Shown here: positions 10,548 through 37,782 of the stretch, piece by piece
How the letters are laid out: every line of letters begins with the position of its first letter
Numbering within the stretch: the first letter of the stretch is position 1
NCBI GenBank assembly: GCA_018303185.1
Contig: JAGVYR010000002.1
Coordinates: 1 to 53,604, forward strand
Direction of reading: 5' to 3'
DNA length: 53,604 bases
Source of the DNA: Candidatus Woesearchaeota archaeon
GTDB taxonomy: Archaea > Nanobdellota > Nanobdellia > Woesearchaeales > GW2011-AR4
Position numbers and translations under genes: made by a program
The notes under the pieces: generated by a model
The model's database searches: none
Told to the model about the DNA's origin: nothing
Seen by the model: only the letters and a program-made list of their open reading frames with translations

Positions 10548-10592
10548 GGATAAAAAAAACAAAAAGCGGATAAAAACAGCGTTTATTTATCC
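10548..10592. promoter_or_regulatory. GGATAAA operator-like cluster upstream of the PAS/HK operon
   Basis: GGATAAA at 10548 and 10568 (20-bp phase), TTTATCC at 10586; lies upstream of TATA-like 'TTATTTAAA' near 10616. Confidence 0.6.
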
Positions 10593-10672
10593 CAATATTA
10601 GCCGTCGACAAAAAGTTATTTAAACACCGGCAGGCAGAAATGAACTGATGCACATAAAAAAAGAGGCATACC

Positions 10673-11932
10673 ATGGATAGTGGCACTTCTCATGTTTTTG
10701 GCATTATAAAGGAGATTGGAGATGCCTCCAGAGACGGGTATGCGCTGATTGACAGCAGCTATAGAGTAATGTGGGTGAACAAGGCACTTGAGCTGAAGGG
10801 CTTCAGGCTTGACAATGTCCACGGAGAGCCTTATTTCAGGGCATTTAACGGAAAGGATGAAGCGGATGAGAACTGCTCCACTGCAAAGGCATTCAGGACA
10901 GGAAAGACAGAAACGAAGCTTGAGAAAGGAAGCGACGGGACTGAATATGAAGTTACGTCAATCCCGCTGAAGGTTGACGGGGCTGTGAAATACGTGCTGG
11001 AAATAAGCAGGGCAGCACATGGCGAAGAAAAGCAGAAGGAAGATCTTTTAGGGGATTACGATTTCTTCGAAGATGCCATAAGCAGGCTGCCGGAAGGATT
11101 TGCAGCTGTTGATTCTTCAGGAAAGCAGAGCATAGTGAATGACAAGTTCTGCAGCATGGTCGGCTTCAGCAGGGAAGAGCTTCTGGGGCAAACGGCGCCG
11201 TTCAAATACTGGGCTGAGGAAAATTATGGAGAGATAGAGCACGCCCTGCGGCAAACGCTTGAAGGGATTTCGAGGGGATGGGAGCTTATATTCAAGAAAA
11301 AAAGCGGAGACAGGTTCTGCGCGCTCATTTTTCCGGTTAAGATATCAAAGCCCAACGGAGAGGATGTATTCATTACAACTGTAAAGGACGTGACTGAGGA
11401 AAAAATGGCAGAAGACGAGCTGCTGAAATTCAAGCTGGGCATTGACAGGTCGCATGAGGTTGTTTTCATCACAGACAGGGAAGGGCACATCACTTACGCC
11501 AACCCGCAGTTTGAGAAGTCATACGGCTACCCGAAAGAAGAATATCTGGACAAAACTCCCAGAATCATAAAATCTGGAATCCTGCAGAAGGATGTTTACG
11601 ACAATTTCTGGAAAACCCTGCTGTCTAAGCTGGCTGTATCAGGGGAAATAACCAATAAGGCAAAAGACGGCAGGCTGCTGGTAATGCAGAGTTCTGCCAA
11701 CCCTATACTGGGCAAGGATGGAGAGATAATAGGCTTTTTGGCTATACAGCGTGAGATCACAGAGCGCAAAGCCATGGAAGATAAACTGAAAGCTGAGGGC
11801 GAAACCCTGAGGCAGAAAATCCAGGAGATGGAGAGATTCCACAAGGTTGCAGTTGGAAGGGAGCTGAGAATGATTGAGCTGAAGAGGAAAATAAGGGAAC
11901 TTGAGGGCATGCTTGAAAGGGAAGGGAAATAA
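10673..11932 (+). CDS. Multi-PAS domain sensor protein with C-terminal coiled coil, no kinase domain
   Basis: 419 aa; PAS-type segments ('FAAVDSSGKQSIVNDKFCSMVGFSREELLGQ', 'VVFITDREGHITYANPQFEKSYGYPKEEYL...'), PAC-like ends, terminal 'ERFHKVAVGRELRMIELKRKIRELEGML'. Confidence 0.88.
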   Translation: MDSGTSHVFGIIKEIGDASRDGYALIDSSYRVMWVNKALELKGFRLDNVHGEPYFRAFNGKDEADENCSTAKAFRTGKTETKLEKGSDGTEYEVTSIPLKVDGAVKYVLEISRAAHGEEKQKEDLLGDYDFFEDAISRLPEGFAAVDSSGKQSIVNDKFCSMVGFSREELLGQTAPFKYWAEENYGEIEHALRQTLEGISRGWELIFKKKSGDRFCALIFPVKISKPNGEDVFITTVKDVTEEKMAEDELLKFKLGIDRSHEVVFITDREGHITYANPQFEKSYGYPKEEYLDKTPRIIKSGILQKDVYDNFWKTLLSKLAVSGEITNKAKDGRLLVMQSSANPILGKDGEIIGFLAIQREITERKAMEDKLKAEGETLRQKIQEMERFHKVAVGRELRMIELKRKIRELEGMLEREGK

Positions 11933-14166
11933 TGAGAATAACATATAAGATGCTTCTTGTGTTCTCGCTGGTAGCAATGCTTCTGGCTTTTCTGGGCTAT
12001 ATCTCCTTCAAAACAAGCGAAAACGCGATGAAAGAGTCCATTGGCCAGAGCGTGGTATCGCTGGCGGAAATAATAATGGAGAATATAAATGCAAATATAG
12101 CTGCCAAGCTCCAGGAATTCCGCCTATACTCAAAAAGCCCAATGGTCATAGAGAGCCTGAAGGCGTCCAATGAGGAATTTGGGAAGCTTGAGGATGTACA
12201 GGGCTATATCGGGCAGAAGGACAGGGAGTGGATTTCTGCACGGAAGGATGAAATCACTCCGTTTATGCAGAGCCGCATGAACAACAGCGTGGCAGCTGAC
12301 ATGAAAAGAAGGACGGATTTCTTTGAAAAAGAATATGGCTACAGGGTTTATGGCGAAGTGTTCATTACAAACAAGTATGGCGCGAACATTGCCCAGACAG
12401 GCAGGACTTCCGACTACAGGCAGGATGATGAGGAATGGTGGCGGGCTGCCAGGAAAAGCGAGGTATACCTCAGCGAAGTGAATTATGATGAAAGCTTGGA
12501 TGCTTATTCCCTTGACATAGGGATGAGGATTGATGACAGCGACGGGAATTTTCTTGGTGTTATGAAGATTGTGCTTAACATAGAGGACATCATAAATGCC
12601 ATAGAGTCTTTCAGTCCGGCAGGAACCGGCAAAGAGAACGCAACGAGCTTTTTGCTGCTTACCAAAGACGGGAAGCTTATATATTCGTCGGAACATTATG
12701 AGTTCCTTGAGGACAAATCAGACTTTTTGTCCCATCATGTATCCGATGTATCCGGAAAAGAAAGCCGGAGGTATTTCGTATCCGAAGGCGACGAGCCCGG
12801 AGAGGGAGAGGAGCTCTTTGCGCATGCCCATTCCAAGGGAATAAAAAACATTGCCGATCCTGGGTGGATTTTGATAGTGGAGCGCCGGACAGAAGAGCTT
12901 TTTGCGCCTGTATTCAGGCTGCGGAAGTTCGAGATTATTGCCACTATCGCCCTTGTGGTGTCCGTGCTTGGCGTAGGCTTCATTTTCTCAAGGATGGTCG
13001 CAAAGCCTATCATGGAGCTGCAGAAGGGAACAGCGGTCATAGCGGGAGGGAACCTTGACTTTAAGACTGACATTGCAACCAAGGACGAAATCGGCGAGCT
13101 GGCAAAATCCTTCGACACCATGGTTTCTGAGCTGAAAAGGTCAAGGCTTGCGCTTGAGAGGCACCAGGAAGAGCTTGAAGGGCAGGTTGAAGACAGGACA
13201 AGGCAGCTTCACAGGAAGATTGAGGAAGCGGAGCTGAGCAAGAGGGCGACCATGAATATCCTTGAAGACATGGAGGAGGCTAACAGGAAGCTGATAGAGT
13301 CACAGGAAAAGCTGAAAGGGCACGTTGGAGAATTGAAGAAGCTGGACGCGCAGAAGGACCAGTTCATTTCCATAGCGGCGCATGAGCTGAAAACGCCCCT
13401 GACAAGCATAAAGGGCTTCTCCGACCTGCTTATGAAGAAGGAAATATCCGAAAATGCGGAGCTGAGGGGGAAATACCTTGGCGTCATATTCAAGGACACG
13501 AAAAGGCTGAGCGAACTCATAACGAACATACTTGAATTGTCAAGGATGGACATCGGGACGCTGAAAATAGCATGGCAAAGCATAAAGATAGACGAGCTGA
13601 TAAATGAAGTGAGGGAGCAGATGGATATCATAATACGGAACAAGGGAATAGATTCCGAATACAATGTTGAGGAAGGGCTTCTTGCAATTGCCCTTGACAG
13701 GGACAAGATAATACAGGTGCTTTCCAACATCATCAATAATGCGGTGCATTATACCGAGAAAGGAAAAATTTCCGTGGGTGTAAATAGGCAGGGAGAAGAC
13801 GTGCTGTTCAGCGTTGCCGATACCGGCATTGGAATTCCGGAGGAGCATATTGGCAAGATGTTCCAGAGGTTTTACCAGGTTGACAATCCTTTGACGAGGA
13901 AGATAGGGGGCAGCGGCCTTGGGCTGTCCTTGTGCAAGGGCTTTGTGGAAGCAATGGGGGGCAGAATATGGGTTGAAAGCAAAGTGGGAAAAGGGTCTGT
14001 GTTTTACTTTACAATACCCTTGAACAGAGGAGACGCCAAGAATGAAGAAATAAGTATCTTCAAGGAAGCAGAGGCAGCCAAATCGCCCTATATGCCGGAG
14101 CCCGGCGAAAAAATTGAGTCAGGCATGCCAATTCCAGACACTGCCGTGAAAAACAGCAGGCTGTGA
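11932..14166 (+). CDS. Cache-HAMP sensor histidine kinase
   Basis: 744 aa; N-terminal TM and extracellular sensor, second TM, HAMP, H-box 'ISIAAHELKTPLTSIKGF', N/G boxes 'NIINNAVHYTEKGKI', 'VADTGIGIPEEHIGKMF', 'GGSGLGLSLCKGF'. Start overlaps the stop of the PAS gene (TAATG). Confidence 0.95.
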   Translation: MRITYKMLLVFSLVAMLLAFLGYISFKTSENAMKESIGQSVVSLAEIIMENINANIAAKLQEFRLYSKSPMVIESLKASNEEFGKLEDVQGYIGQKDREWISARKDEITPFMQSRMNNSVAADMKRRTDFFEKEYGYRVYGEVFITNKYGANIAQTGRTSDYRQDDEEWWRAARKSEVYLSEVNYDESLDAYSLDIGMRIDDSDGNFLGVMKIVLNIEDIINAIESFSPAGTGKENATSFLLLTKDGKLIYSSEHYEFLEDKSDFLSHHVSDVSGKESRRYFVSEGDEPGEGEELFAHAHSKGIKNIADPGWILIVERRTEELFAPVFRLRKFEIIATIALVVSVLGVGFIFSRMVAKPIMELQKGTAVIAGGNLDFKTDIATKDEIGELAKSFDTMVSELKRSRLALERHQEELEGQVEDRTRQLHRKIEEAELSKRATMNILEDMEEANRKLIESQEKLKGHVGELKKLDAQKDQFISIAAHELKTPLTSIKGFSDLLMKKEISENAELRGKYLGVIFKDTKRLSELITNILELSRMDIGTLKIAWQSIKIDELINEVREQMDIIIRNKGIDSEYNVEEGLLAIALDRDKIIQVLSNIINNAVHYTEKGKISVGVNRQGEDVLFSVADTGIGIPEEHIGKMFQRFYQVDNPLTRKIGGSGLGLSLCKGFVEAMGGRIWVESKVGKGSVFYFTIPLNRGDAKNEEISIFKEAEAAKSPYMPEPGEKIESGMPIPDTAVKNSRL

Positions 14167-14399
14167 AACCGATCAAAATGACTTTGGATATAAAAGCGGA
14201 AGTGATAAGGATAATGAAGCCTTTGTTCGGCGAGGAGATAGAGAAAACCATCTCCGGCCTATATGACAATGAGCATCCGCAGGAGATATTCAATGCGGCG
14301 CACAGCCTGCTTACGGATTTTATCGGAGAGGAGAGCGCAGACTCGCTGCTGCAGGAAATCCTGGAGAAATTTCCCAGGCTGAATGCCAGGCTGCATTAA
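14163..14399 (+). CDS. Small helical protein, cassette copy A (paralog of 29914..30159)
   Basis: 78 aa; GTG start overlapping the HK stop; 'EVIRIMKPLFGEEIEKTISGLYDNEHPQEIFNAAHSLLTDFIGEESADSLL' matches the paralog through its length. Confidence 0.85.
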   Translation: MKPIKMTLDIKAEVIRIMKPLFGEEIEKTISGLYDNEHPQEIFNAAHSLLTDFIGEESADSLLQEILEKFPRLNARLH

Positions 14400-14415
14400 A
14401 GGAGGAGGATGAAAA

Positions 14416-14826
14416 ATGGGAAAAAAAGCAATTTTATCAGCAGGCATGGCTCTGGCCGTACTGACAGGCTTAAGCGGCACTGCTTCTGCGCAAGGAATCA
14501 AAGCGGATTTAACAGATGCGATACCCGAGCTTGCCATAGCTATGGTGTCGCTTGCGGGCATGGCAGTTCTTATCCCCAAGACCCGCGAAATCGGCGGGGC
14601 CCTGGGAAAGGCATTTAACTTCATAAAGCTCGGGCTGCTGCTTCTTTGCCTGTCTTTTTTGTGGGTGGCAATGGCGGAATTAAAAGGCATAGAGGAAACA
14701 AGGACGGCAGAGCTGGTCTTCGAGGGCTTGTCAATATTGAGCGTGATGTTCGTGGCGATGGGGCCATACTATTTTGCAGAGTTCCTGAAGTCAAGCAAAA
14801 TGGCTGCAAGGGATAAAAAAGGATAA
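14416..14826 (+). CDS. Small multi-pass membrane protein, cassette copy A
   Basis: 136 aa, several hydrophobic helices; GGAGGAGG upstream of the start. Confidence 0.8.
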   Translation: MGKKAILSAGMALAVLTGLSGTASAQGIKADLTDAIPELAIAMVSLAGMAVLIPKTREIGGALGKAFNFIKLGLLLLCLSFLWVAMAELKGIEETRTAELVFEGLSILSVMFVAMGPYYFAEFLKSSKMAARDKKG

Positions 14827-14846
14827 AAAACGCTGAAAATTTATCC
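14812..14846. promoter_or_regulatory. GGATAAA operator-like cluster between convergent genes
   Basis: GGATAAA at 14812 and 14821, TTTATCC at 14840 (GGATAAA-N12-TTTATCC). Confidence 0.45.
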
Positions 14847-14892
14847 TGTATTGGGCGAAGGAAGCAAATAAAAAAGGGGATGAGAAGAGGAG

Positions 14893-15255
14893 CTAAAGAA
14901 GCCTTTTTACCCTTCTTACAAGCTCGTCATTGTCGAAGGGCTTTGTTATGTAGTCAAGCACATCAAGCTTTTCAAGCGCATCCTTTCCTGTCTCTGAAAA
15001 GCGGGCAACAGTGAGGAAGGCTATCTTTAAATTCTTTCCTGCAGGGCTCTGCCTGATCTTTTCTGTTGTTTCCCTGCCTGACATCCCGGGCATCATCATA
15101 TCCATAAGTATGATGTCCGGCTTTTCCCTTTCCAGCATATCAAGGCATTCCTGCCCTGACGAGGCTGCGGTTACATGGTCGCCGCTGCTGCTGAAAATCG
15201 CCGCTACAAGCTCCCTGAGGCTCTCCTCGTCGTCAACAACCATTATATTTGCCAT
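14893..15255 (-). CDS. CheY-like response regulator receiver domain
   Basis: 120 aa; 'MVVDDEESLRELVAAIF', phosphoacceptor in 'DIILMDMMMPGMSG', 'FLTV', 'DYITKPFDNDEL'. Confidence 0.95.
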   Translation of the reverse strand: MANIMVVDDEESLRELVAAIFSSSGDHVTAASSGQECLDMLEREKPDIILMDMMMPGMSGRETTEKIRQSPAGKNLKIAFLTVARFSETGKDALEKLDVLDYITKPFDNDELVRRVKRLL

Positions 15256-15373
15256 TTTTCCTTCCTCTTTTTCCTTTGTTTATTAACTTTTCCCTGCAGC
15301 AGCTGCCGCCCCGCCTATGTTTTGACGAGAGGGGGCGGGGCAGCCATGCCGCGTCTCTGGGAACAGCCAAGCA

Positions 15374-15613
15374 TCATTGCACTGCGTAAAAGCTTCCCTT
15401 CCTTTTCATCCTTATGCTCCATAATTTCCTTCTTTCGTGCCTGTTCGGAGAGTAGACTTTTTTCTTCGATTCCAGTATCCTTATGTACTTGCTTATCGTG
15501 ACTCTGTTTTCCGTCCGTAAATGGAAGCATATCGCCTTCATTGTCGCAGGCTTTCTGCGCTTCCTGAGGAATGCAAGTATCTTTTTCTCGAAATCAGTTC
15601 TTGCCATTTTCAA
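15374..15613 (-). CDS. Small winged-helix DNA-binding protein
   Basis: 79 aa; 'FEKKILAFLRKRRKPATMKAICFHLRTENRVTISKYIRILESKKKVYS' looks like wHTH; start may be the second Met. Overlaps the end of the next minus-strand gene. Confidence 0.7.
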   Translation of the reverse strand: MKMARTDFEKKILAFLRKRRKPATMKAICFHLRTENRVTISKYIRILESKKKVYSPNRHERRKLWSIRMKRKGSFYAVQ

Positions 15614-16148
15614 GGTTTATTGTCCTGTCAGCGAACATTTCAACGTCTTTGATGAGGGAATCGCTGTCGTTCAGGATCATGTCTTCCTTCAGTATTATGA
15701 AAACTTTATTTGTGTTCTGCATGCTTTCCTCCACTGTAAGCTCGTGCGTGAATTTGAGTATGTCGTGGCTCTGCTCGTACATCAATAATGAGGACATTGT
15801 GTCGAAGATTACCGCGCTGCAGCTGTGCTTTGTTATTGACTCGTGAATTGCAGCCCTTATGTCATTGAGCTTTCTCGGCTCTTTGAGGAAGATGCAGTTT
15901 TCAGCCCTTTCCGGGCTCCTGTAATGGGATGTGAGCACGTCAATGAAGAAGAATTTTGAGAAGTTGATGTTCACTTCATCAAGGTATCTTATAACGTCGG
16001 CATACGGGCGGCTGAGGCAGACGTAGCATATCATGGCGCTTTTCTTCTCAACGCTTTTCACAAGCTCCGTAAGCTTTTCCTCGTATTCCTTTTCGCTCAG
16101 CATTACGAGGACGAAGCGGTTTTCAGATATTTCCTTTAAAAGATCCAT
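15594..16148 (-). CDS. KaiC/RecA-like protein lacking a recognisable Walker A motif (copy 1)
   Basis: 184 aa; similar to 30524..31057; Walker-B-like 'SAVIFDTMSSLLMYE'; no GxxxxGK[ST]. GGTGG just upstream of ATG. Confidence 0.75.
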   Translation of the reverse strand: MDLLKEISENRFVLVMLSEKEYEEKLTELVKSVEKKSAMICYVCLSRPYADVIRYLDEVNINFSKFFFIDVLTSHYRSPERAENCIFLKEPRKLNDIRAAIHESITKHSCSAVIFDTMSSLLMYEQSHDILKFTHELTVEESMQNTNKVFIILKEDMILNDSDSLIKDVEMFADRTINLENGKN

Positions 16149-16281
16149 GGTCCACCACTATAGTTGTTATCCGCTGGCTTTCCGCCTGCGTTCTGTTTTC
16201 AGGGCCTTCAAGCGGGATTAATGCACATGATGCAGTGAGCATGAGCAGCAACAGCAGCACAATCAGGCCTTTTTTATCCAT
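16123..16281 (-). CDS. 52-aa predicted lipoprotein (not in the supplied ORF track)
   Basis: Minus strand: MDKKGLIVLLLLLMLTASCALIPLEGPENRTQAESQRITTIVVDHGSFKGNI*; hydrophobic signal with lipobox-like TASC; overlaps the start of the KaiC-like gene by 26 nt (translational coupling). Confidence 0.65.
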   Translation of the reverse strand: MDKKGLIVLLLLLMLTASCALIPLEGPENRTQAESQRITTIVVDHGSFKGNI

Positions 16282-16327
16282 GCAGGATTAATTTCACCAT
16301 TACTTATTAAAGAACACGCTTATTTTG

Positions 16328-16355
16328 GGATAAATTACCTGTTTTTTGGGATAAA
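16328..16355. promoter_or_regulatory. GGATAAA operator-like cluster upstream of the lipoprotein/KaiC-like unit
   Basis: GGGATAAATT twice, half-sites at 16328 and 16349 (21-bp phase). Confidence 0.6.
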
Positions 16356-16582
16356 TTGCAGGTTTTTGCTGTTTCATCTGCTTATGTTTGTGTAAAGTAA
16401 AGTTCTTAATGTCCAAGCGCCGGCTATGGCGGTGCGATGGTTTTCCGCTTCGCTCCAAACTTGCTGCCCCTGTCCTGAAATGCAGCCATCCTGACATGGC
16501 CTTGCCGCCTTTCAAACGCCCCAATCTTACCAAAAAACAGGCAGTTCAATACCAAAAAACAGGCAATAAGAAGCCAGCATAA

Positions 16583-16984: not shown

Positions 16985-17284
16985 TTTGGACAGTGTTTTT
17001 TATTGGGGTTTTGCATATTGAATTTGCGCTGTTCTTTTCTGCATCATTATTGAAAATTCCGCAAGAAATTTGGATTGGGTTTCTTTGCATTTATTTTTTT
17101 CTTTCATCTTTAATGTTTAATTTTTATTGTGTTTTTTCTCGTTGTTTTGCTTTTTATTTTATTCTCTGCCTTCCTTTGTTTTTCGTTTGATTTTTTGCCG
17201 CGTTATCGGCCCGCACTTGATGTTTCCAGCTTTGTTTTATCCTTAACCCGCTCCGCAGTTCCAGCTGCGGCTTTATCGGGTCCG

Positions 17285-17602
17285 CTATGCTTTGCCAAGC
17301 TCCTTCTCCAGCTCCCTTATCCTGTTCTTCAGCTCAACCATCCTCAATTCACGCCCGACAGTCACCTTTTGAAACCTTTCAAGCTCTTCAGTCCTGGCCT
17401 TCACAATCTGTATCTCATTCTGCAGGCTCCTGTTCGCTTCTCCCATCTCTTTTGAGTTCAGCTCAAGGGAGCGCTCCATCAGGGTCCTGTCCTCGTCAAA
17501 ATGGATGTAGGTATCGCTGACTGCATCAAGGAAATCCTTCAATCCCGAAGGCACACCGCTGCCGAAATACTTCCTCAGCTGCCTCTCAAGTATCTTATGC
17601 AT
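17285..17602 (-). CDS. Coiled-coil signalling adaptor-like protein with VGRELRM motif
   Basis: 105 aa; 'ILERQLRKYFG...FLDAVSDTYIHFDEDRTLMERSLELNSKEMGEAN' plus 'ERFQKVTVGRELRMVELKNRIRELEKEL', segments that normally sit between sensor and kinase domains. Confidence 0.75.
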   Translation of the reverse strand: MHKILERQLRKYFGSGVPSGLKDFLDAVSDTYIHFDEDRTLMERSLELNSKEMGEANRSLQNEIQIVKARTEELERFQKVTVGRELRMVELKNRIRELEKELGKA

Positions 17603-18719: not shown

Positions 18720-19946
18720 CTATGCACCTCCCTTTTCCTCCAGATCCTTCACCCTTTTCTTCAGCTCAACCATCCTCAATTCACGCCCGACAGCAACCTT
18801 GTTGAACTTCTCCAGCTCCTCGTTCTTGAGCTGCAGCTCCCTTGTCCTTTTCGCAACCTTTTCCTCAAGATCCTTTGTCGATTTCTCAAGGCTCAAAGCC
18901 ATTGAATTGAAGGCGTCAGTCAGTTCCCCGACTTCATCTTCAGTAACAGCTTCAATCTTCTTATAATCTCCCTTGCCAAGCTCCTTTGCAGCATCCTTGA
19001 GCCTCACAATAGGCTTTGACAGCTCCCTTGCAAGGAAAAAGCCGAAAAGCAGGCTGCCCAGCACGGATGCCGAAACTATCGCAACAAGGACAAGCTTCAT
19101 CTGCTTTAAGGGCATGAAAGCCTCCTCGCGGCTCATCTCAGCCAGCAGGCAAACGCTATGCCCGGGAATCCACTTATGGTAGCTTATAACCTCATCACCT
19201 GCATAATTGCTATGCAGCCCGAAATTGCTCAGCCCGGAAACGCACTCCCTTACCGCGCTGGAATCAATTCTTTTAGAATAAAATTCGGAATTGCGCCTTG
19301 ATTCGCTTACCAGCACGCTTTCCTTGCTTACAAGATATGTTTCTCCTGTCTCCCCAAGGCCTGCCCTTTCGGACATGAGGGCCCTTACCTTGCTGAGGCC
19401 TGTTATGCCCACTGCAACTCCCGTCAGATTACCATTTTCGTCCTTTACAGGAAATGAGGCCGATACTGCAATTCCGCCAATCGTCGAATCCATGTAGAAA
19501 TTCTGCACAAAAATCCCCTTTTTTCCATTGATGAAATACTCTTCAGCGCTTTTGTCATCGCCGAAAAAAGACGGGTCTGCGGAGGCTATCACTTTTCCTT
19601 CGGAAGACAGCAGCAATATGGGCCTGAAAGGGCTGCCTTTCTGTATTGCAAAAACCCTGTTGTTTATTACCTCCTGCTCTTCTTCTGAGATTTCAACAGA
19701 AGATGCTGACTTTGAAGCATGCTCAGCTATGACGTCAATTGTTGCAACATGCTCCACTTCACCGGCAAGGCCTGTAAAAAAATCATCCAGCTCACTTTCC
19801 TTGAGGGCAGAAATGCCCCGCATCTGCGCCTGTATCCTCTCGTTAAGAGCATTTTCAAGCACGAAATAGAAGGCAATACCAGATATGGCAGTGCTTATCA
19901 GCGCGACTGCGAGAACGGCAAGGGTAATTTTGTGCCTTATCTTCAT
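18720..19946 (-). CDS. Cache-HAMP membrane receptor with C-terminal VGRELRM coiled coil, no kinase domain
   Basis: 408 aa; N-terminal TM, dCache-like extracellular region, second TM, HAMP ('RELSKPIVRLKDAAKELGKGDY...EDEVGELTDAFNSMALSLE'), terminal 'EKFNKVAVGRELRMVELKKRVKDLEE'. Confidence 0.88.
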   Translation of the reverse strand: MKIRHKITLAVLAVALISTAISGIAFYFVLENALNERIQAQMRGISALKESELDDFFTGLAGEVEHVATIDVIAEHASKSASSVEISEEEQEVINNRVFAIQKGSPFRPILLLSSEGKVIASADPSFFGDDKSAEEYFINGKKGIFVQNFYMDSTIGGIAVSASFPVKDENGNLTGVAVGITGLSKVRALMSERAGLGETGETYLVSKESVLVSESRRNSEFYSKRIDSSAVRECVSGLSNFGLHSNYAGDEVISYHKWIPGHSVCLLAEMSREEAFMPLKQMKLVLVAIVSASVLGSLLFGFFLARELSKPIVRLKDAAKELGKGDYKKIEAVTEDEVGELTDAFNSMALSLEKSTKDLEEKVAKRTRELQLKNEELEKFNKVAVGRELRMVELKKRVKDLEEKGGA

Positions 19947-19992
19947 GCAGCTTCAATCCAAAAAGGGACATAAATACCTTACTTGCATTTCA

Positions 19993-20037
19993 GGATAAAA
20001 AAATGCAGAAAGGGATATTTTCAGCGAAAGTTTATCC
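19993..20037. promoter_or_regulatory. GGATAAA operator-like cluster upstream of the Cache-HAMP/FIST operon
   Basis: GGATAAA 19993, GGATATT 20013, TTTATCC 20031. Confidence 0.6.
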
Positions 20038-21081
20038 TTAAATTTTCCTCTCAACCACAAAATCAGCGAATAATTTCAGCTTCTTTTTCGCTTCAGAATC
20101 CGGAATGACGAAGTCAAGCCTGCTCCATGCCTTCAGAACAAGCTTCCTTGCCTTCATGCGGGCATAATCCAAAGCATTATTCCTCTCAATGATGGAAACG
20201 GCTTCCTTGATCAGCTTCAGGTCGCGGGTCTTCAGGCTTAAAATCTCGAGCAGCCTCCTTCTGTCAGGCTCAGAACCATCTTCAAGGACTTTTATTACCA
20301 TCAGCGACCTTTTTCCCTCGGAGATGTCATCGCCGAATTCCTTGCCAATTTCCGCAGTCAGATTGAGAATATCATCCTGTATCTGGAAAGCCACGCCGAT
20401 AGCCTCTGCAAAGTCGGCAACAGCCCTGCTTTTCCTTGTGCCCGCATCGCCAAGTATGGCGCCTATCTTTGCGCCCAGCCTCACCAAAGTCCCGGTCTTG
20501 TAGGCGCACATCTGCATGTAAAGATCTTCCGTGGCAAAGCCGCTGTTGTTGTGCCAGTAAATGTCAAGGCTTTGGCCAAGGTGCAGCTTTATCATCTCTT
20601 CTGCAATGACTTCATGCAAAAGCAATTTCCTCTTGGCGTCAAGATCGGACTTCTTTATCAGCAAATACGGAAGGTAGTACATCATATTTCCTGCATTGAT
20701 AGCGACATCAACGCCAAAAAGCCTGTGGATGCATTCCTTCCCGCGCCTCTTTTCTGAATTGTCCATTACATCATCCACCATCAAAGTCCCATTGTGGATG
20801 AACTCTATCAGGGGCACAAGGTCCATCACTTTGGAGCCCCCCCCGAGCACATCGCAGCAGAGAAGCATGAATACGGGCCGCCATCTTTTGCCTCCGCGGT
20901 CAAGCAGATCCCAGATAGGCTCTGCAATCATGTTAAACGACTTTTTGTCATAGCCGTAATTCAGGGAGCCAAGATTTTTCTCAATCCAATCATGGCTCAG
21001 TTCCTTAGGGAAGAAGCGAAGCATGCTTTTGTCCACAAACGGCTTCATTGAATCTATGTATTCCATGAACATCTCAGTCAC
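20038..21081 (-). CDS. Polyprenyl (geranylgeranyl/farnesyl-type) diphosphate synthase
   Basis: 347 aa; first Asp-rich motif in 'LMVDDVMDNSEKRRG', second in 'FQIQDDILNLTAEIGKEFGDDISEGKRSLMVIK'. Confidence 0.93.
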   Translation of the reverse strand: MTEMFMEYIDSMKPFVDKSMLRFFPKELSHDWIEKNLGSLNYGYDKKSFNMIAEPIWDLLDRGGKRWRPVFMLLCCDVLGGGSKVMDLVPLIEFIHNGTLMVDDVMDNSEKRRGKECIHRLFGVDVAINAGNMMYYLPYLLIKKSDLDAKRKLLLHEVIAEEMIKLHLGQSLDIYWHNNSGFATEDLYMQMCAYKTGTLVRLGAKIGAILGDAGTRKSRAVADFAEAIGVAFQIQDDILNLTAEIGKEFGDDISEGKRSLMVIKVLEDGSEPDRRRLLEILSLKTRDLKLIKEAVSIIERNNALDYARMKARKLVLKAWSRLDFVIPDSEAKKKLKLFADFVVERKI

Positions 21082-21514
21082 CCATCACTTTTACCATCAC
21101 TTTCCGCTGCCTGTTTACCCCGTCCAAATCCACGTGGAAGATGGACTGCCATTTTCCCAGCAGCATCTCTCCGTTGACAACAGGGACTGTTTCAGAAGCG
21201 CCTAAAAGCAAAGACTTGAGGTGCGAATGCCCGTTGAGAGGCTCATCCTTCGGGCAGTCCCTTTTCTCTATGTCGTCATGGAGGTATCTTGCCGAGGCAG
21301 GCGCAAGCCTTTCAAGAAAAGACTTAAAATCGTACAAGAGCCTTTCTTCATTCTCATTGATGCGGATGCAGGAAGTGGTATGCATCGAGAATATGCACGC
21401 AATCCCTTCGGTAATGCCGGATTTCGAGACAGCTTCCCTGACTTGCGAAGTGATGTCCTCAAAATGCATCCTTTCCCTTGAAAGGATAGAGATAAACTGC
21501 CCGTAATGCTTCAT
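21074..21514 (-). CDS. YjbQ/UPF0047 family protein (secondary thiamine-phosphate-synthase-type)
   Basis: 146 aa; 'GIACIFSMHTTSCIRINENE', 'HDDIEKRD', 'NGHSHLKSLLLGASETVPVVNGEMLLGKWQSIFHVDLDGVNRQRKVMVKV'. Confidence 0.9.
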   Translation of the reverse strand: MKHYGQFISILSRERMHFEDITSQVREAVSKSGITEGIACIFSMHTTSCIRINENEERLLYDFKSFLERLAPASARYLHDDIEKRDCPKDEPLNGHSHLKSLLLGASETVPVVNGEMLLGKWQSIFHVDLDGVNRQRKVMVKVMGD

Positions 21515-21595
21515 GACACACCCCTTTTTGCAGTATAATCAATCAACCAAGATATAAAAATTATTCAAGTTTTGGGATTAATATATCAAAAAACA

Positions 21596-21621
21596 GGATA
21601 AATTTTTACTGAAGTTTATCC
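21596..21621. promoter_or_regulatory. GGATAAA palindrome between divergent YjbQ/IDS and UbiA operons
   Basis: GGATAAA 21596, TTTATCC 21615 (N12 spacer). Confidence 0.6.
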
Positions 21622-21683
21622 CTAAATCTTGATAATTTATTAATACTACTGTAAAGCTTATCTAGCCAAAAAGGGGTGATTTT

Positions 21684-22550
21684 TTGGAAATAGGAGTACT
21701 TCTCAAAGCTACGAGGGCATACAGGACATTAACCCCTTTGATGGTGATGCTCGTTTCAGTGGCTTTTGCGGGAAAGCTGAATATGGGCATAGCAGCCCTT
21801 ATGCTTGCCAACATACTCATCTATTCCGGCGCAAGCATACATAATGCCGTAAGAGACAATGATTTCAGGATGCCGCATTATTCGGGGAAAGTTTCAACGG
21901 CGCTGTTCATAGCGGCGATAGCAATCTCCTTTTCAGATAAAATAATGCTTGCAGCCGCACTGCTGTGGATAGCGCTGGGCTTTTTTTACAACACGCTCTC
22001 AAGAAAAATCCTTTTCGGGGATTCAGCGGTAATATCAGTGACTCATTTCGCAATCCCATCAATGAGCGCTTCGCTTATGGCAGGCGCTTCAATAAAAAGC
22101 TCAGTCCCGCTGGCAGCTTTCTTCATGCTCATAGGCTTTCTGATAACGCAGACAAAGAACCTCAAGGACAGGGAAAGCGACAAAAAAAGGGATTATGCAA
22201 CGCTTGCCACAAGATTCAGCAGCGGAACAAAGATGACAAAAGCCCTCCTTACAGCTTCCTTCGTTGCCATGATGTCCTCTTACTTCATCTTCGGCCTTTC
22301 AGCGAATTATATATTTTACTCGGCAGCGCTGGCTGTAATCCTTTTCTTTTCCCTGTCAAAAATTTCGAAGAATGAGGAGGGTATTGCGCTGATGCTGACA
22401 AGGATGGCGTTGCTCGTATTCATGCTCTCTCTCATCCTTGAAAAAACATCCGACTTCATGGTAATATCGGCGGCGCTGGCGATGTGCTACATCTACATAG
22501 TTGTCATATCCGCCGGAAGGATGAGGGACATGGCGGCGGGTGCAAAATGA
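21684..22550 (+). CDS. UbiA-family prenyltransferase
   Basis: 288 aa polytopic; Asp motifs 'SIHNAVRDNDFRMPHYSGK' and 'TKNLKDRESDKKRDYATLA'; TTG start after GGGGTGAT. Confidence 0.87.
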   Translation: MEIGVLLKATRAYRTLTPLMVMLVSVAFAGKLNMGIAALMLANILIYSGASIHNAVRDNDFRMPHYSGKVSTALFIAAIAISFSDKIMLAAALLWIALGFFYNTLSRKILFGDSAVISVTHFAIPSMSASLMAGASIKSSVPLAAFFMLIGFLITQTKNLKDRESDKKRDYATLATRFSSGTKMTKALLTASFVAMMSSYFIFGLSANYIFYSAALAVILFFSLSKISKNEEGIALMLTRMALLVFMLSLILEKTSDFMVISAALAMCYIYIVVISAGRMRDMAAGAK

Positions 22551-23740
22551 CGGCAGCAAGGGCAAGGGCGCAGCTTGCGGCTGATGTAAGCAGGTTTTTC
22601 GGGCCTTTCAGGAGAAATGAAGAAGCGAAGTACAACCTCGGGCTTGGGGAGATAGAGTGCAGAAATGCCCTGATGGAAGAGGCAATGGGCCAGAAAGAAA
22701 AAATCGCGGGAAAGCTGCTCAGCTCCCTTTCAAAATATCCCGGCTGCCAGGGATACATGCCCCTCAACGAGAAAATTGCAGAGCTGATAAAGGCCGAAAC
22801 GGGAATGGACTTCAATCCCGGGCAGATTGTGCTGACGGCAGGAGCTGCCGATGCAATTTCCCATGCGGTTTTTGTCTATTCGCATGCAGGTGAAAAAGTC
22901 ATGTTCCCGGTGCCGAGCTTCCCGTACTGGTGCAGCGTGGCAAGGAATGAATCATTGATAGAGCCAATAATGTGCATGCCTCAGGATTTCTCAGATAAAC
23001 TTTCAGGAAGGATTGAGGCGAGGGCAAAAAATGTATCAATGCTAATACTCAATGTGCCCCACAACCCCTACGGGTGCTCAATAGAACGGGGAGAGGCAGA
23101 GAAAATCAATGAGACTGCTTCAAGGCATAAGATAAAGGTTGTAATTGACGATGTCTATAGGGCTTTCACGAAAAAGGAATGGATAGGGAACAGCTTTGAC
23201 ATGGAAAATTCAGTAATAGTCGACAGCCTCTCGAAAAGATTCGGCGTTCCGGGATTAAGGCTGGGATTTGCAGCCCTGCCAAAAGTGGAAGTGAAGCACT
23301 TCAGGGCTGCTGTGGCTAACCAGTATGTGGGAGTCAGCATGCCTTCAGCCATAATAGCAGACGCGCTGCTTGAAGCCTACCTGAGCAATAAAAAACTGAA
23401 CACAATACCGAAGGAAATAGAAAAAAGGCAGGAAATCCTTGACAGCTACCTGAAAAAGCTTGAGCCATACGGCATTTTTTCCCAAAAGCCCGAGGGAGGG
23501 ATGTTCAGGGCTGTTTTCTGCAGGGATGCAAACCTGCTTGCTGCGGAGCTTGCCGGAAAAAATGTGATTGTGAAGGGCGGAAGGTCGAATTTTCCATTTT
23601 CATATGCCGGCATGCCTGAATTCATAAGGATTTCCGTCGGAGGAGAGGAAAGGATAAGGGAGGCAGCCGAAATAATAGCCGAAACGGTAAAGGAGATTGA
23701 GATGCCTTTGGAGGGCGAGAAAATTGCAGTCATTAGGTGA
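22547..23740 (+). CDS. PLP-dependent class I/II aminotransferase
   Basis: ORF from 22484, likely start ATG 22547 (overlaps UbiA stop). 'LNVPHNPYGCSI', 'VVIDDVYRAF', 'SLSKRFGVPGLRLGF' contains the PLP-Lys region. Confidence 0.9.
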   Translation: MTAARARAQLAADVSRFFGPFRRNEEAKYNLGLGEIECRNALMEEAMGQKEKIAGKLLSSLSKYPGCQGYMPLNEKIAELIKAETGMDFNPGQIVLTAGAADAISHAVFVYSHAGEKVMFPVPSFPYWCSVARNESLIEPIMCMPQDFSDKLSGRIEARAKNVSMLILNVPHNPYGCSIERGEAEKINETASRHKIKVVIDDVYRAFTKKEWIGNSFDMENSVIVDSLSKRFGVPGLRLGFAALPKVEVKHFRAAVANQYVGVSMPSAIIADALLEAYLSNKKLNTIPKEIEKRQEILDSYLKKLEPYGIFSQKPEGGMFRAVFCRDANLLAAELAGKNVIVKGGRSNFPFSYAGMPEFIRISVGGEERIREAAEIIAETVKEIEMPLEGEKIAVIR

Positions 23741-24566
23741 AAAGAGGCAGCAGGAAAGAGAAAGGGGCAAGATAGACTTCCAGCTTGTGAACGGGAAAGA
23801 AGTGAGGCATTACATAAACATGGCAAGGTATGACAATGCCGCCTCAAGATGGGCCTCCATGGAAGACCTCTTTGCCACTGATTCGGATTTCATAGACCTG
23901 CTGATGCTCAAGCTGACCGGAAAATATCCCGGCTACAGGCAAAAGAAGCTGCTTCTGAGGGCGCTGATGACTGTAAGCATGGGGACTGGATACCACGCGC
24001 CCTCTGTTTTGGCGCCGAGGCTTGCGGCTTCCACCACCAAGAACGGCAATTTTGCAGTGATCAACGGCCTTATTGCGGGGCTTTCAACTGTTGGCACAGA
24101 CCATCTGGGAGCGGTGGCAGGTGTCATGGAGCTTTTTGTTAAGATAAAGGAAGAAGCAGGGCACGGCATAAAGGAATATGCGGAGAATTTCGTTTCGGGA
24201 GAGATTGCAGCAGGCAGGAAAATACCGGGCTTCGGGCATCCTGTTTACGAGAAAGATGAGCGGGCTGAACTGCTGCTGAAGGAAATTGAAAAAGGGTTTG
24301 ATAATGAATACATTGAGGCGTACAGCGCAGTTGCAGGAAAGCTCAGGGATGAAAAGGGGATATTTCCGAACATAGACGCTGCGCTTGCCCTTGCCTACCT
24401 CAGCCTTGGATTTGAGCCTGAGCACGGGATTTACCTTTCGTTTTTGGGAAGGTCGCTGAACATGATGTGCCATATAATGGATGAGCTGCCGAGAAAGCCC
24501 TTTTCATTCCTGAACGAGGCCGTGCCTCTGGAGAAGAATGCGGAATTTGAAAATGGAAAGCTATGA
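23724..24566 (+). CDS. Short citrate-synthase-family protein (citryl-CoA lyase-like)
   Basis: ORF track starts 23697; TTG at 23724 has GGAGGGCGAG at good spacing. 'TDHLGAVAGVMELF', 'IPGFGHPVYEKDERAE', 'FPNIDAALALAYLSLGFEPEHGIYLSFLGRSLNMMCHI'; lacks the N-terminal part of normal citrate synthases. Confidence 0.82.
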   Translation: MQSLGEKRQQERERGKIDFQLVNGKEVRHYINMARYDNAASRWASMEDLFATDSDFIDLLMLKLTGKYPGYRQKKLLLRALMTVSMGTGYHAPSVLAPRLAASTTKNGNFAVINGLIAGLSTVGTDHLGAVAGVMELFVKIKEEAGHGIKEYAENFVSGEIAAGRKIPGFGHPVYEKDERAELLLKEIEKGFDNEYIEAYSAVAGKLRDEKGIFPNIDAALALAYLSLGFEPEHGIYLSFLGRSLNMMCHIMDELPRKPFSFLNEAVPLEKNAEFENGKL

Positions 24567-25641
24567 TGTTGTTATTGTCGGGGCGGGGATTGCCGGGACA
24601 GGATTGGCTTACAACCTGAAGCAGATTTGTCCTGAGATTAAAGTGTTGGTTATTGAACAATATGGAGTAGGGTCACATGCAGGCTATGGATATAGGAACA
24701 CCTATGGGAATGTAATTGAGGGATATAACTTGCCGTATGTAAAAAAATTTAAGGGCCTGATACTACAGGCAAAAAATCATTTGAAAGAAGAAAGCATCAA
24801 ATTAGAAATAAAACTCGATGTGCCTTTTTACTTAGTAAACTACAAGGAAATATGTAAAAGCCTATTTGAGAGATCTGGTGTCAAATATTCCAACGATACT
24901 TGCATAAAGACTTTGGGAAAAAATAAGGTATTAACAAAGAAAGGTATATACCTATTTAAGTTTTTGGTAGATTGCAGCGGCTCTAATTTTTTTATACGCA
25001 GGGAAAAAAGGCTGAAAATGCCCTACTGCTACTGGGTATGCAAAAAAATAGAAAAATTTCCCACAGTCGAGAGTGGCGATTACTTCACGTATATTGTAAC
25101 CAGCGATGGAGGACTTAAGGAACAATACCCTTTAGGAGAAGAAATGATTGTTGCGGAATGGAAATTTGAATCGTGTATAAATCCACATCATAAGAAAATA
25201 CCGGGATTGGTTATACCATGCAACCCTTCTACCCCTATGGTAATGGGTAACATAGCATTTCTTGGTGATTCCTTTGGAAATGCCACTACAAGTGCTGGAG
25301 AAGGTATAAGGCCCATACTGGAAACTTCCAAATTATTGGCGAAGTGTATTAAAGAAGAAAATCTTCAGAAATATCCAAAGTTGTGGAACAAAATTTTCCT
25401 GAAAACTTACCTAAAACACTTGGCAACAAGGCTAAATCAGAAAGATAAGATTAAGCAGCTTGAGATGCTGAAGGAAGACCCACGAAGTATTTTGAAGATA
25501 TTGAGGTGCGAACACGTGGATAAGGAAACCATAAAAAAATTCCCAAAAACAACCCTCTTAATAAATGGTTTGAATTATGCTGCGCTGCTGGCTAAGCATA
25601 AATTGTATGAGAAATCAGAGTTTCTTAAATTTCAGAATTAA
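24553..25641 (+). CDS. FAD-dependent geranylgeranyl-reductase-family oxidoreductase
   Basis: Start ATG 24553; 'YDVVIVGAGIAGTGLAYNLKQ' dinucleotide-binding motif, 'GNIAFLGDSFGNATTSAGEGIRPILETSKLLAKCI' GGR-family C-terminal motif. Confidence 0.85.
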   Translation: MESYDVVIVGAGIAGTGLAYNLKQICPEIKVLVIEQYGVGSHAGYGYRNTYGNVIEGYNLPYVKKFKGLILQAKNHLKEESIKLEIKLDVPFYLVNYKEICKSLFERSGVKYSNDTCIKTLGKNKVLTKKGIYLFKFLVDCSGSNFFIRREKRLKMPYCYWVCKKIEKFPTVESGDYFTYIVTSDGGLKEQYPLGEEMIVAEWKFESCINPHHKKIPGLVIPCNPSTPMVMGNIAFLGDSFGNATTSAGEGIRPILETSKLLAKCIKEENLQKYPKLWNKIFLKTYLKHLATRLNQKDKIKQLEMLKEDPRSILKILRCEHVDKETIKKFPKTTLLINGLNYAALLAKHKLYEKSEFLKFQN

Positions 25642-26727
25642 CTGGTTGGACAAGACATCATCGTTGAAGCTCATAGAGCGTATGCCGTTGTAGATATTTT
25701 GAAGGAATCCGGTTAATAAATACCGCAGGTATGGGCATTCATACCGCGTTCTCGGAGGATACCTGATTTTTGCAGTTATGATACCTTTTTGCTCTGTGAC
25801 ATTGAGGAGACCGCATCCGGTGGCAGAGAATATTGCTCTCGAATAATCCACTTTTTTGGATACTGAATTCAAATCTGAAAAAAGCCCATCAGCAATAGAC
25901 TCAGCCTTTGATGTGATTTGCTTTTTACATAAATCAGAAAGCCCCCTTTTACGCAAATGCATAGCCGCTATGCCAAAAATACCTATTTCACCGGGAATTA
26001 AGGTAAAATTCTTCAATACAAACTTCCCGCTATGGCTCACATCTATAGCTTTAAAATATATTAATTTTTTTGTGGATATGGTTTTGAGCTGAAAGTTATA
26101 CTCAATTCGTGGAAAATTAAGACTTGATAATTCTTTTGTGAGTTCAAGTTCAGAAAGTTCTGGCCTAAAGGGACGATTTGTATATATGCAGGTTTCCAAG
26201 ATACTCTTTCCTTTTTCAACTTTGTATTTTGTTTTTACCTTAAGCCTTAAAAGCATAGAAAAGATACCATCAAGGATGCCTGCAAACAGGGCTTCATTGC
26301 CTGTTTTTCTTGAAACTACAGAGTCATAGCCCCAAGTCCTAAGAATACTCTTTTTTTCGTCATATTGGTAATTATCGCATGCTGAAGCACCCGCAGACTG
26401 CAAGGATTTTATGATAAAATCTAATATGTAAGGGAATTTATTAAGGGAAATTCCTTTTTTATCCCCAAATAACGCATACCTTATGCCGCTGTCGAATCCC
26501 ACCTCGTACCATAGATCAAGAGCTTTTTTCTTGCCAAGAACTTCAATCGTAGCCAGTTCCAAATCAACAATTATATCCTCAAAATAATACAAAACCCTTT
26601 TCCTGCTCCCCTTCCCTCCGTACTTTGAGGATGTCCTGCTCACTATTATCCCCGGCCTGTCTATTGTGACGACTTTCGGGAAAAAAAGCCTGCTGAAAAG
26701 GAAATCCCGGACTTTGTGAGATGACAT
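25615..26727 (-). CDS. Uncharacterised protein
   Basis: 370-aa ORF, same-strand spacing with the SSS gene; no family recognised. 3' end overlaps the GGR-like gene by 27 bp. Confidence 0.7.
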   Translation of the reverse strand: MSSHKVRDFLFSRLFFPKVVTIDRPGIIVSRTSSKYGGKGSRKRVLYYFEDIIVDLELATIEVLGKKKALDLWYEVGFDSGIRYALFGDKKGISLNKFPYILDFIIKSLQSAGASACDNYQYDEKKSILRTWGYDSVVSRKTGNEALFAGILDGIFSMLLRLKVKTKYKVEKGKSILETCIYTNRPFRPELSELELTKELSSLNFPRIEYNFQLKTISTKKLIYFKAIDVSHSGKFVLKNFTLIPGEIGIFGIAAMHLRKRGLSDLCKKQITSKAESIADGLFSDLNSVSKKVDYSRAIFSATGCGLLNVTEQKGIITAKIRYPPRTRYECPYLRYLLTGFLQNIYNGIRSMSFNDDVLSNQLILKFKKL

Positions 26728-28083: not shown

Positions 28084-28782
28084 TTACTCCTTCTCTTCAA
28101 AAACCTTTATGCCTTTTCCCGTAATCTCATAGGCTTTGCTTTCCTTGTGCTGGCTTGTCCACCTCATCTTCGGGATGAAGATGCGCCTTTCTATGGTGCC
28201 AAGCTCCAGAAAATCAAGGCTTATGGTGCCGTCAACAAGATAGGGTATATTGTAGTAAAAGCCGTGCCTGCTGTCACGGCTCATCTCAAGTATGAGGATG
28301 GATGTGAGCCCTTTTCTCCTCAGCATGGAGAATGCCTGGTTTATCATCCTCCTTATGTTCACTTCGGACGGTATGGACAAAGCCTCAGGATGCGAGACTG
28401 CAGTGAAGAAGACATTAAAGCTGTCCACCACAAGGCGGTGTATGCTGCTGTCCTCCCTTATCTTCTGCAGAAGGTCGGAATAAATCTTTTCATACTCGGG
28501 ATATGTGAAGCATTTTACCACAATCTTCTCCTGCTTCACGAATTTCATGAATTCATCGGCAAAGGAAAACTGCGAAATCATAGTGTCAATATTCTCGCGC
28601 GGCTCCTCAAGGTTTATGTAGACGCATTTCTGGCCCTTTCTCGCGCCTTCAAGCAGGAAATGAAGCGCAAAGATTGACTTGCCGACTCCGGGGGGCCCCG
28701 AAAGCCCGATTATGCTGCTCTTGGGCAGGCCGCCCTGAACCATGGAATCCACTCCCCTAATCCCCGTCTTTTCCCTTTCCAT
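28084..28782 (-). CDS. KaiC/RadA-like ATPase with intact P-loop
   Basis: 232 aa; 'TGIRGVDSMVQGGLPKSSIIGLSGPPGVGKSIFALHFLLEG', 'YINLEEP', Walker B 'HRLVVDSFNVFF'. Confidence 0.92.
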   Translation of the reverse strand: MEREKTGIRGVDSMVQGGLPKSSIIGLSGPPGVGKSIFALHFLLEGARKGQKCVYINLEEPRENIDTMISQFSFADEFMKFVKQEKIVVKCFTYPEYEKIYSDLLQKIREDSSIHRLVVDSFNVFFTAVSHPEALSIPSEVNIRRMINQAFSMLRRKGLTSILILEMSRDSRHGFYYNIPYLVDGTISLDFLELGTIERRIFIPKMRWTSQHKESKAYEITGKGIKVFEEKE

Positions 28783-29097: not shown

Positions 29098-29180
29098 GCA
29101 TTAGCCCTGCGCTTACACGTATTAAAATCTTTAATACCACTAGTAAGTTATCATGACAATTTATTAATCCGTATAAAAGC

Positions 29181-29221
29181 TTTATCCTGATTATGGGATA
29201 AATTTATTGAATAAGTTATCC
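29181..29221. promoter_or_regulatory. GGATAAA operator-like cluster between divergent paralogs
   Basis: TTTATCC 29181, GGATAAA 29196, GTTATCC 29215 (GGATAAA-N12-GTTATCC). Confidence 0.6.
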
Positions 29222-29579: not shown

Positions 29580-29646
29580 ACAGCCATATCCTAACCTAAA
29601 CAAAAACATCTGGCTTGCATTAATCCTGCTTGCCGACCGGACAAAA

Positions 29647-29867: not shown

Positions 29868-29913
29868 GAAAATTATAAAAAATTATAAATAGAAGGGGCA
29901 AGTAATCTGATGA

Positions 29914-30159
29914 ATGAGCGCCAAAAGCGAGATTATTGAAATTCTTGCCCCTATTTTCGGAAAATCCATACAGGATACAATAGAGGCATTCTATGATGAA
30001 GGGCATCCGCAGGAGCTTTACAACATGGCGCACCACATGCTTTCTGAGATTATGGGCCCGAAAAACGCGGAAACAATACTATCTAGGCGGCCGAGCCTGA
30101 AAAAACCGGAATCGGGATATGAGGAGGATGGAAAAAATGTCAATACTCATTTATTATGA
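29914..30159 (+). CDS. Small helical protein, cassette copy B (paralog of 14163..14399)
   Basis: 81 aa; 'EIIEILAPIFGKSIQDTIEAFYDEGHPQELYNMAHHMLSEIMGPKNAETIL'. Confidence 0.85.
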   Translation: MSAKSEIIEILAPIFGKSIQDTIEAFYDEGHPQELYNMAHHMLSEIMGPKNAETILSRRPSLKKPESGYEEDGKNVNTHLL

Positions 30160-30484: not shown

Positions 30485-30523
30485 GCTCAAGCCACGCCGA
30501 TACCTGCACAGCCTATCTACAGC

Positions 30524-31057: not shown

Positions 31058-31061
31058 CTTT

Positions 31062-32495: not shown

Positions 32496-32514
32496 CTTTC
32501 TTTTTTTGCCGCCA

Positions 32515-37443: not shown

Positions 37444-37465
37444 CTGTGCCCTGCAAGGGCAGCGC

Positions 37466-37708
37466 TTACACTTTCTTTTCCTGCACAGCTTTTGCTGTCC
37501 ATAAGTTCATGTTTCCGACCCTGAATCCGTTTATCTTCCCTTCAAGCTGGAGCTTCAGGCACTGCGTATTGACAGAGTGCCAAGCCCTCCTTATGCCGGA
37601 TGCCAGTTCCAATGTCGAAACAGGCTTATCAGAATTTTCCACAATCTCAATTATTTTGCTGCGAATGCTCGCACGAATACCGGAACGATTATTGGCATAG
37701 TTAGCCAT
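37466..37708 (-). CDS. Small winged-helix DNA-binding protein
   Basis: 80 aa; 'IRSKIIEIVENSDKPVSTLELASGIRRAWHSVNTQCLKLQLEGKINGFRVGNMNLW'. Confidence 0.75.
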   Translation of the reverse strand: MANYANNRSGIRASIRSKIIEIVENSDKPVSTLELASGIRRAWHSVNTQCLKLQLEGKINGFRVGNMNLWTAKAVQEKKV

Positions 37709-37755
37709 ACCAAATCTAGTGTGAGACTATGTATTTATACCCCACGCAGGTTATG

Positions 37756-37782
37756 GGATAAAAAAATCAATATATGGATAAA
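37756..37782. promoter_or_regulatory. GGATAAA operator-like cluster between the divergent wHTH and KaiC-like genes
   Basis: GGATAAA at 37756 and 37776 (20-bp phase). Confidence 0.6.

Follow-up and report, generated by a model that had tools for sequence, protein, structure and literature searches.

Paired GGATAAA/TTTATCC sites at a fixed distance above TATA boxes in a signalling and prenyl-lipid locus of a Woesearchaeota archaeon

Introduction

Archaeal activators of transcription recruit TBP or TFB from positions upstream of the B recognition element (BRE), whereas repressors act by blocking the core promoter or the start site (PMC5512572), and activator sites are similarly placed upstream of the BRE in other described systems (PMC5817253; PMC13286277). 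Here we describe the heptamer GGATAAA (TTTATCC on the opposite strand), which recurs as pairs of half-sites in 53,604 nucleotides of DNA from Candidatus Woesearchaeota archaeon (contig JAGVYR010000002.1, assembly GCA_018303185.1). This stretch, referred to as the window, is the complete contig C59 of a 1.62-Mb draft genome of 76 contigs (G000). The paired half-sites are shared by most promoters of a 28-kb gene cluster and lie at a set distance above their TATA boxes.

The fla promoter of Methanococcus maripaludis carries several short copies of the EarA site directly above the BRE/TATA, where they are needed for activation (PMC5512572); those sites are 6 bp long and present in four copies at one promoter, whereas the sites described here are 7 bp long, paired, and distributed over eight to nine promoters of one locus. 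The CsmR/CirA regulon of Haloferax volcanii is tied to a KaiC-like protein (CirA) and likewise has a semi-palindromic site above the BRE/TATA, but that site, TATCA(N4)TGATA, acts genome-wide with 65 chromatin immunoprecipitation peaks (PMC13286277), while the present pair is widely spaced and locus-restricted. The UV-inducible ups promoters of Sulfolobus acidocaldarius have a short A(N)TTTC hexanucleotide at a set position (-44 to -39) above the BRE, the regulator of which was unknown when it was described; unlike the present element, it is a single non-palindromic copy, genome-wide and conserved in other Sulfolobus species (PMC5817253). In work on KaiC-like ATPases as archaeal signalling hubs and on the census of archaeal two-component systems (PMC5847659), KaiC, inactive KaiC (iKaiC, DUF835), receiver-only response regulators (RRs) and histidine kinases (HKs) are found together as protein-level predictions, to which the present locus adds a promoter link in a DPANN lineage. 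With a site at a set distance above the BRE/TATA and an enrichment in intergenic DNA, the element would fall in the class of upstream activating sites represented by EarA and ups, and would belong to an already known kind of archaeal regulation. A limited literature search found no described regulator binding site in Woesearchaeota-type archaea. Most of these archaea are uncultured.

Abundance and distribution of GGATAAA

As background we used 479 kb in stretches from other contigs, together with pattern searches across the whole genome. The window has 25 copies of GGATAAA where 8.3 were expected, and none of 100 shuffles had as many. Intergenic DNA of the window (~4.2 kb) holds 18 copies (4.2/kb), compared with 0.39/kb in the intergenic DNA sampled from 14 other contigs (29 copies in 74 kb), while the density in coding DNA is lower in the window than elsewhere (0.14 vs 0.40). 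Dinucleotide shuffles of the window intergenics predicted 1.2 copies (maximum 6 in 300). The heptamer was the top 7-mer of these intergenics both against the sampled genome (Fisher p = 7e-12; runner-up p = 1e-5) and against a Markov model (p = 3e-11). An earlier reading of the letters and open reading frames (the sequence-only reading) had pointed out the recurring sites, and both the shuffles and the other contigs were exceeded; the motif is more than chance and is concentrated in intergenic DNA. The copy at 16273 lies within ATGGATAAAAAA, the coding start of a 52-aa lipoprotein-like open reading frame.

Genome-wide, exact inverted pairs whose half-sites are separated by 4-34 bp were found at clusters A, B, D and E of the window (listed below) and at only two other places (C20 and C35), and exact direct pairs four times in the window and six times elsewhere. 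The element is nearly confined to this contig. A genome-wide regulon was rejected, since the other KaiC genes of the genome lack the paired motif and the only two plausible promoters outside the window are C35:23953-24075 and C4:4286-4315; the enrichment upstream of signalling and KaiC genes elsewhere, which the sequence-only reading had proposed as a check, was not found.

The first of these places (L081 13954-14076) is an intergenic region with five GGATAAA/TTTATCC copies ahead of a truncated signal-peptide open reading frame at the contig end, and is possibly a further target or a continuation of the locus. The second (C4:4286-4340, L142) has GTTATCC, TTCATCC and TTTATCC, followed after 16-17 bp by TTAAAAT, 5' of a 187-aa secreted-type protein, and is a possible target outside the locus.

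Half-site clusters and their distance to TATA

All seven clusters named by the sequence-only reading were found, after small corrections. They are listed below with their exact half-sites in brackets; transcription units were inferred from gene spacing, and the gap is counted from the end of TTTATCC to the start of the TATA box (HTH, helix-turn-helix; wHTH, winged helix-turn-helix; aa, amino acids).

Cluster A, 10548..10592, plus strand (10548+, 10568+, 10586-): GGATAAA 10548 and 10568, TTTATCC 10586, gap 24, TATA 10617-10624; upstream of the PAS sensor/HK operon.
Cluster B, 14811..14846, no strand assigned (14811+, 14821+, 14840-): GGATAAA 14811 and 14821, TTTATCC 14840; between the convergent genes 14416-14826 and 14893-15255.
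Cluster C, 16304..16355, minus strand (16328+, 16349+): TTTATCC 16349-16355 and 16328-16334, 16 bp, TATA 16311-16304; promoter of the lipoprotein-DUF835(iKaiC)-HTH79-response regulator operon.
Cluster D, 19969..20037, minus strand (19993+, 20031-): GGATAAA 20037-20031, degenerate AATATCC 20019-20013, TTTATCC 19999-19993, 16 bp, TATA 19976-19969; dCache-HAMP/FIST/coiled-coil.
Cluster E minus promoter, 21551..21621, minus strand (21596+, 21615-; variant GGATTAA at 21575): GGATAAA 21621-21615, TTTATCC 21602-21596, TTAATCC 21581-21575, 16 bp, TATA 21558-21551; UPF0047-polyprenyl synthetase.
Cluster E plus promoter, 21596..21645, plus strand: GGATAAA 21596, TTTATCC 21615, 16 bp, TATA 21638-21645; UbiA-aminotransferase-citrate synthase-like-GGR-like operon.
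Cluster F, 29172..29221, minus strand (29181-, 29196+): GGATAAC 29221-29215, TTTATCC 29202-29196, 16 bp, TATA 29179-29172, with an extra TTTATCC at 29181 on the plus strand; 100aa-KaiC1-SSF genes.
Cluster G minus promoter, 37732..37782, minus strand (37756+, 37776+): TTTATCC 37782-37776 and 37762-37756, 16 bp, TATA 37739-37732; wHTH80-1642aa-477aa-DUF7504.
Cluster G plus promoter, 37756..37825, plus strand: GGATAAA 37756 (gap 55) and 37776 (gap 35), TATA 37818-37825; KaiC2.

Most half-sites listed earlier are exact, but those given at 20013 and 29215 read GGATATT (two mismatches) and GTTATCC (one mismatch), and the half-site at 29181 had been omitted from the pairs; among the single copies, 47002 stood and two starts were corrected to 17236 (from 17237) and 53442 (from 53446). 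Adjacent exact half-sites are spaced by 10, 20, 20 and 21 bp as direct repeats and by 18, 19, 19 and 38 bp as inverted repeats. This spacing is helically phased (simulated p = 6e-4), which bears out the regular phasing proposed before and would suit a dimeric DNA-binding protein.

We trained a BRE/TATA model, independently of the window, on 230 regions upstream of genes in other contigs; it converged on aaAAAaa-TTTATAAA (also written aaAAAaaTTTATAAA). Many genes of this DPANN archaeon may be leaderless, as the model sites start at a median of 38 bp ahead of the start codon. The gap between TTTATCC and TATA is exactly 16 bp at the dCache, lipoprotein/DUF835, 100aa/KaiC1, UbiA and wHTH80 promoters, and a sixth 16-bp gap is found at the UPF0047/polyprenyl synthetase promoter by way of the TTAATCC variant. 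The second half-site usually stands above the first, 19 bp away when inverted and 20-21 bp away when direct. At these six promoters, the sites described before as lying above TATA-like boxes keep a constant distance to TATA boxes that were modelled independently. At the UbiA promoter the fitting TATA is the second-best model site within 200 bp, and at the wHTH80 promoter a G-rich BRE keeps the full BRE+TATA score low, while the 8-bp TATA alone scores well.

Gap 16 was observed at 5 of the 18 exact sites and no other gap reached three; the probability of at least five sites sharing any one gap at random positions is 0.009. A scan combining pair, gap and TATA returned five promoters in the window, one weak match in the 479 kb elsewhere and none in reversed sequence. 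The same scan on 1000 dinucleotide shuffles gave a mean of 0.013 and a maximum of 1, and with the other 104 anagrams of TTTATCC the count never exceeded 2. The dCache promoter is not among the five because its second direct half-site is degenerate (AATATCC). TTTATCC (and its shifted frames) was also recovered at several promoters of the window by a motif-blind scan of word-pair geometry, the lists of which were judged by eye and contained no word common to several promoters in other contigs or in a syntenic contig of the relative G049. Paired sites, gap and TATA together make a strong case.

A putative locus-dedicated transcription factor

We read the GGATAAA/TTTATCC pairs, from the enrichment, contig restriction, phasing, fixed TATA distance and paired architecture observed, as upstream activating sites of one putative transcription factor dedicated to the locus (probability roughly 0.72). 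An element shared across most promoters of the 28-kb cluster suggests that one DNA-binding protein switches the whole cluster. The factor would bind the half-site pairs on one face of the DNA, and with the gene-proximal half-site ending 16 bp before the TATA, just above the BRE, the bound protein may help the assembly of TFB and TBP. It would co-regulate the sensor-kinase, iKaiC/HTH/response-regulator, Cache/FIST, prenyl-lipid, KaiC1/transporter and wHTH/surface-protein operons, and probably also the PAS and KaiC2 promoters. Its gene may itself lie within the locus, as HTH79 or wHTH80, and the factor might act downstream of the HK, RR and KaiC proteins. Binding by one protein, activation rather than repression, and control by HK, RR and KaiC are what we infer from the arrangement of sites and genes. 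The tie between the sensor, KaiC and prenyl-lipid operons, which the sequence-only reading had joined in a regulon, has strong support in the enrichment, the phasing and the TATA distance, within the limits of the locus; the element is real and locus-wide, sharper than that reading saw and narrower in scope. Its promoter grammar (TTTATCC, 16 bp, TATA, and a second half-site 19-21 bp further up) is directly testable as DNA, and it defines membership of a signalling locus in which HK, KaiC and prenyl-lipid enzymes are otherwise linked by neighbourhood alone.

Several observations weigh against such an activator. The PAS/HK promoter has a trio of sites but a gap of 24, and the KaiC2 promoter has no recognisable half-site at gap 16, its gaps of 35 and 55 being those of upstream half-sites at other promoters. 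Cluster B, singled out before as a misfit (14812-14846), lies between convergent genes, and neither strand has a TATA at gap 16. The 16-bp gap was noticed by eye before testing, though the TATA model was independent, and the gap excess by itself is only p ~ 0.01; activation and repression are, moreover, inseparable by sequence. Among 60 relatives at the family/order level, the exact dyad is absent apart from one match each in two genomes, and looser patterns are few and without clustering. Conservation upstream of orthologs had been expected, and the motif is absent at the orthologs examined at this family/order distance: the order-level relative G049 has no GGATAAA at its KaiC2/wHTH promoter, while 1642aa-wHTH-KaiC2 (73% identity) and HK, RR and DUF835 proteins are kept on one contig. 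Nor was an analogous motif of different sequence found in that syntenic contig. A second order-level relative, G050, retains the UbiA/citrate synthase-like/GGR/370aa/polyprenyl synthetase cluster (L073). The element has a narrower distribution than the genes. Since the turnover of binding sites is often quicker than that of genes, absence at family distance weakens the case for a function without refuting it.

Two dyads in relatives were set aside as chance. The one in G058, with 17 bases in common with 21596, lies inside the 3' end of a GAPDH gene, and the one in G049:C1 stands upstream of a wHTH paralog in a genome with 5 matches vs 6 in the control.

Candidate regulators

15374..15613, minus strand: HTH79, a small basic helix-turn-helix protein and candidate regulator in the inferred cluster C unit; HTH_11 match below cut-off.
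37466..37708, minus strand: wHTH80, a candidate regulator with orthologs in motif-free relatives.

HTH79 gave weak HTH matches and has no close ortholog in the 60 relatives (best 36%). Being lineage-restricted like the motif and encoded in a motif-driven unit, it is a reasonable candidate regulator, and as a candidate it appears at least as good as wHTH80. Tentatively, and with the odds against it, the locus may have a private promoter class through which HTH79, as a hitherto undescribed small HTH activator, commands the only clear two-component system, two KaiC-family switches and the prenyl-lipid/prenyltransferase pathway; if so, signalling would be switched together with membrane or prenyl-cofactor chemistry.

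That wHTH80, named first by the sequence-only reading, itself reads GGATAAA is a sub-case of the proposed activation and is doubtful. Its own promoter has half-sites at gaps 16 and 36, and the wHTH80-KaiC2 gene pair is conserved in a relative. However, wHTH80 was matched in 13 of 60 genomes, its own included, and the 12 others are without the motif. Promoters of its orthologs (L034, L035, L036 and L037) have tandem GCGAATATT/AGTATTAATATT-like repeats, different from GGATAAA, which was sought there and is absent. In the wHTH80 promoter of the window (37709-37740) only the palindrome TAGTCTCACACTA is kept, just downstream of the TATA, at the start site, and is possibly a relic of the GCGAATATT-type element, itself the likely autoregulatory site of a small wHTH family. 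With that element in the orthologs and TAGTCTCACACTA below its own TATA, wHTH80 would more likely repress itself through it. A single-sequence structure model of wHTH80 (predicted local distance difference test score, 67) had no clear winged fold, and PDB sequence searches returned nothing useful.

At another wHTH-like gene (137 aa, 46563-47008), one lone TTTATCC stands below the TATA box and ahead of the start codon. This placement is repressor-like but may be due to chance.

Other explanations of the sites

A factor bound at the same sites could be a repressor or locus-wide silencer that keeps the cluster off until a signal arrives, which we consider distinctly unlikely. The confinement of the motif to one contiguous locus is in keeping with silencing, direct repeats on one DNA face could nucleate oligomers, and the position of the two small HTH genes, each in a motif-driven unit, would be in line with negative autoregulation. 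The sites nevertheless leave the BRE and TATA free, while archaeal repressors usually cover the BRE/TATA or the start site (PMC5512572), and silencing would not require the gap to be held at 16 bp. Less probable still is that an alternative general factor, e.g. a TFB variant, reads the element as a component of a special core promoter. The fixed 16-bp distance to TATA and the poor BRE at several promoters, e.g. lipoprotein and wHTH80, would agree with this, but half-site pairs in either orientation, 19-21 bp apart, resemble the sites of a dimer or tandem regulator.

It is very improbable that the inverted pairs act as terminators or attenuators in the form of RNA hairpins and are not protein sites. 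Positions 21590-21630 fold well as RNA (z = -3.7), and the minus strand of cluster B forms a hairpin with a run of six U behind it (z = -2.0), which may be where the RR operon terminates; yet direct-repeat clusters are unable to pair, cluster A is unremarkable (z = -1.3), and most clusters are not part of the transcript, as they lie above the TATA box. RNA hairpins were rejected except perhaps at cluster B. An artefact of chance or composition, or a foreign contig with another background, is hardly credible, since the AT-richness of both motif and intergenics is countered by the shuffles, other contigs, reversed control and anagrams, and the tetranucleotide signature and codon usage (arginine codons) match the rest of the genome, so that a misbinned or foreign contig is ruled out.

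Genes of the locus

10673-14826, plus strand: PAS sensor and dCache histidine kinase unit.
11932..14166, plus strand: dCache-HAMP-HisKA-HATPase histidine kinase.
14893..15255, minus strand: receiver-only response regulator.
16281-14893, minus strand: lipoprotein, DUF835 iKaiC, HTH79 and response regulator unit.
19946-17285, minus strand: dCache-HAMP, FIST and coiled-coil unit.
21514-20038, minus strand: UPF0047 protein and polyprenyl synthetase unit.
21684-25641, plus strand: UbiA prenyltransferase, aminotransferase, citrate synthase C-domain protein and GGR-like flavoprotein unit.
29097-26740, minus strand: 100aa, KaiC1 and SSF transporter unit.
28084..28782, minus strand: KaiC1, KaiC-family ATPase.
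37708-30524, minus strand: wHTH80, large surface proteins and DUF7504 unit.
37854-38624, plus strand: KaiC2, KaiC-family ATPase.

Among sensor-kinase matches in the genome, the dCache histidine kinase is much the strongest; three other HATPase matches exist. As the receiver-only response regulator has no DNA-binding domain, a phosphorylation link to the element would need a partner. By KaiC2, the nearest named relatives are Nanoarchaeota/Woesearchaeota assemblies. The sensor-type proteins at 10673-11932, 17285-17602 and 18720-19946 have a common C-terminal coiled coil, 'F.KV.VGRELRM.ELK..I.ELE', and a G049 protein (L072 13308-13436) bearing the same tail adjoins KaiC2.

The cluster at 20038-26727 encodes polyprenyl synthetase, UPF0047, UbiA, aminotransferase, citrate synthase-like (C-domain), GGR-like and 370-aa proteins, and its product is possibly a prenylated cofactor or lipid. 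The GGR-like and 370-aa genes (24538-26727) have low codon scores and a GC content below that of their neighbours (0.41 around 24-26 kb), and were perhaps recently acquired, yet their homologs are clustered in G050. A paralogous pair of ~80-aa proteins (14163-14399 and 29914-30159) is found beside membrane proteins. Three paralogous DUF5752-like proteins are encoded at 48668-48985, 49339-49629 and 51003-51335; in other DPANN contigs, relatives of DUF5752 are repeatedly found in the vicinity of KaiC2.

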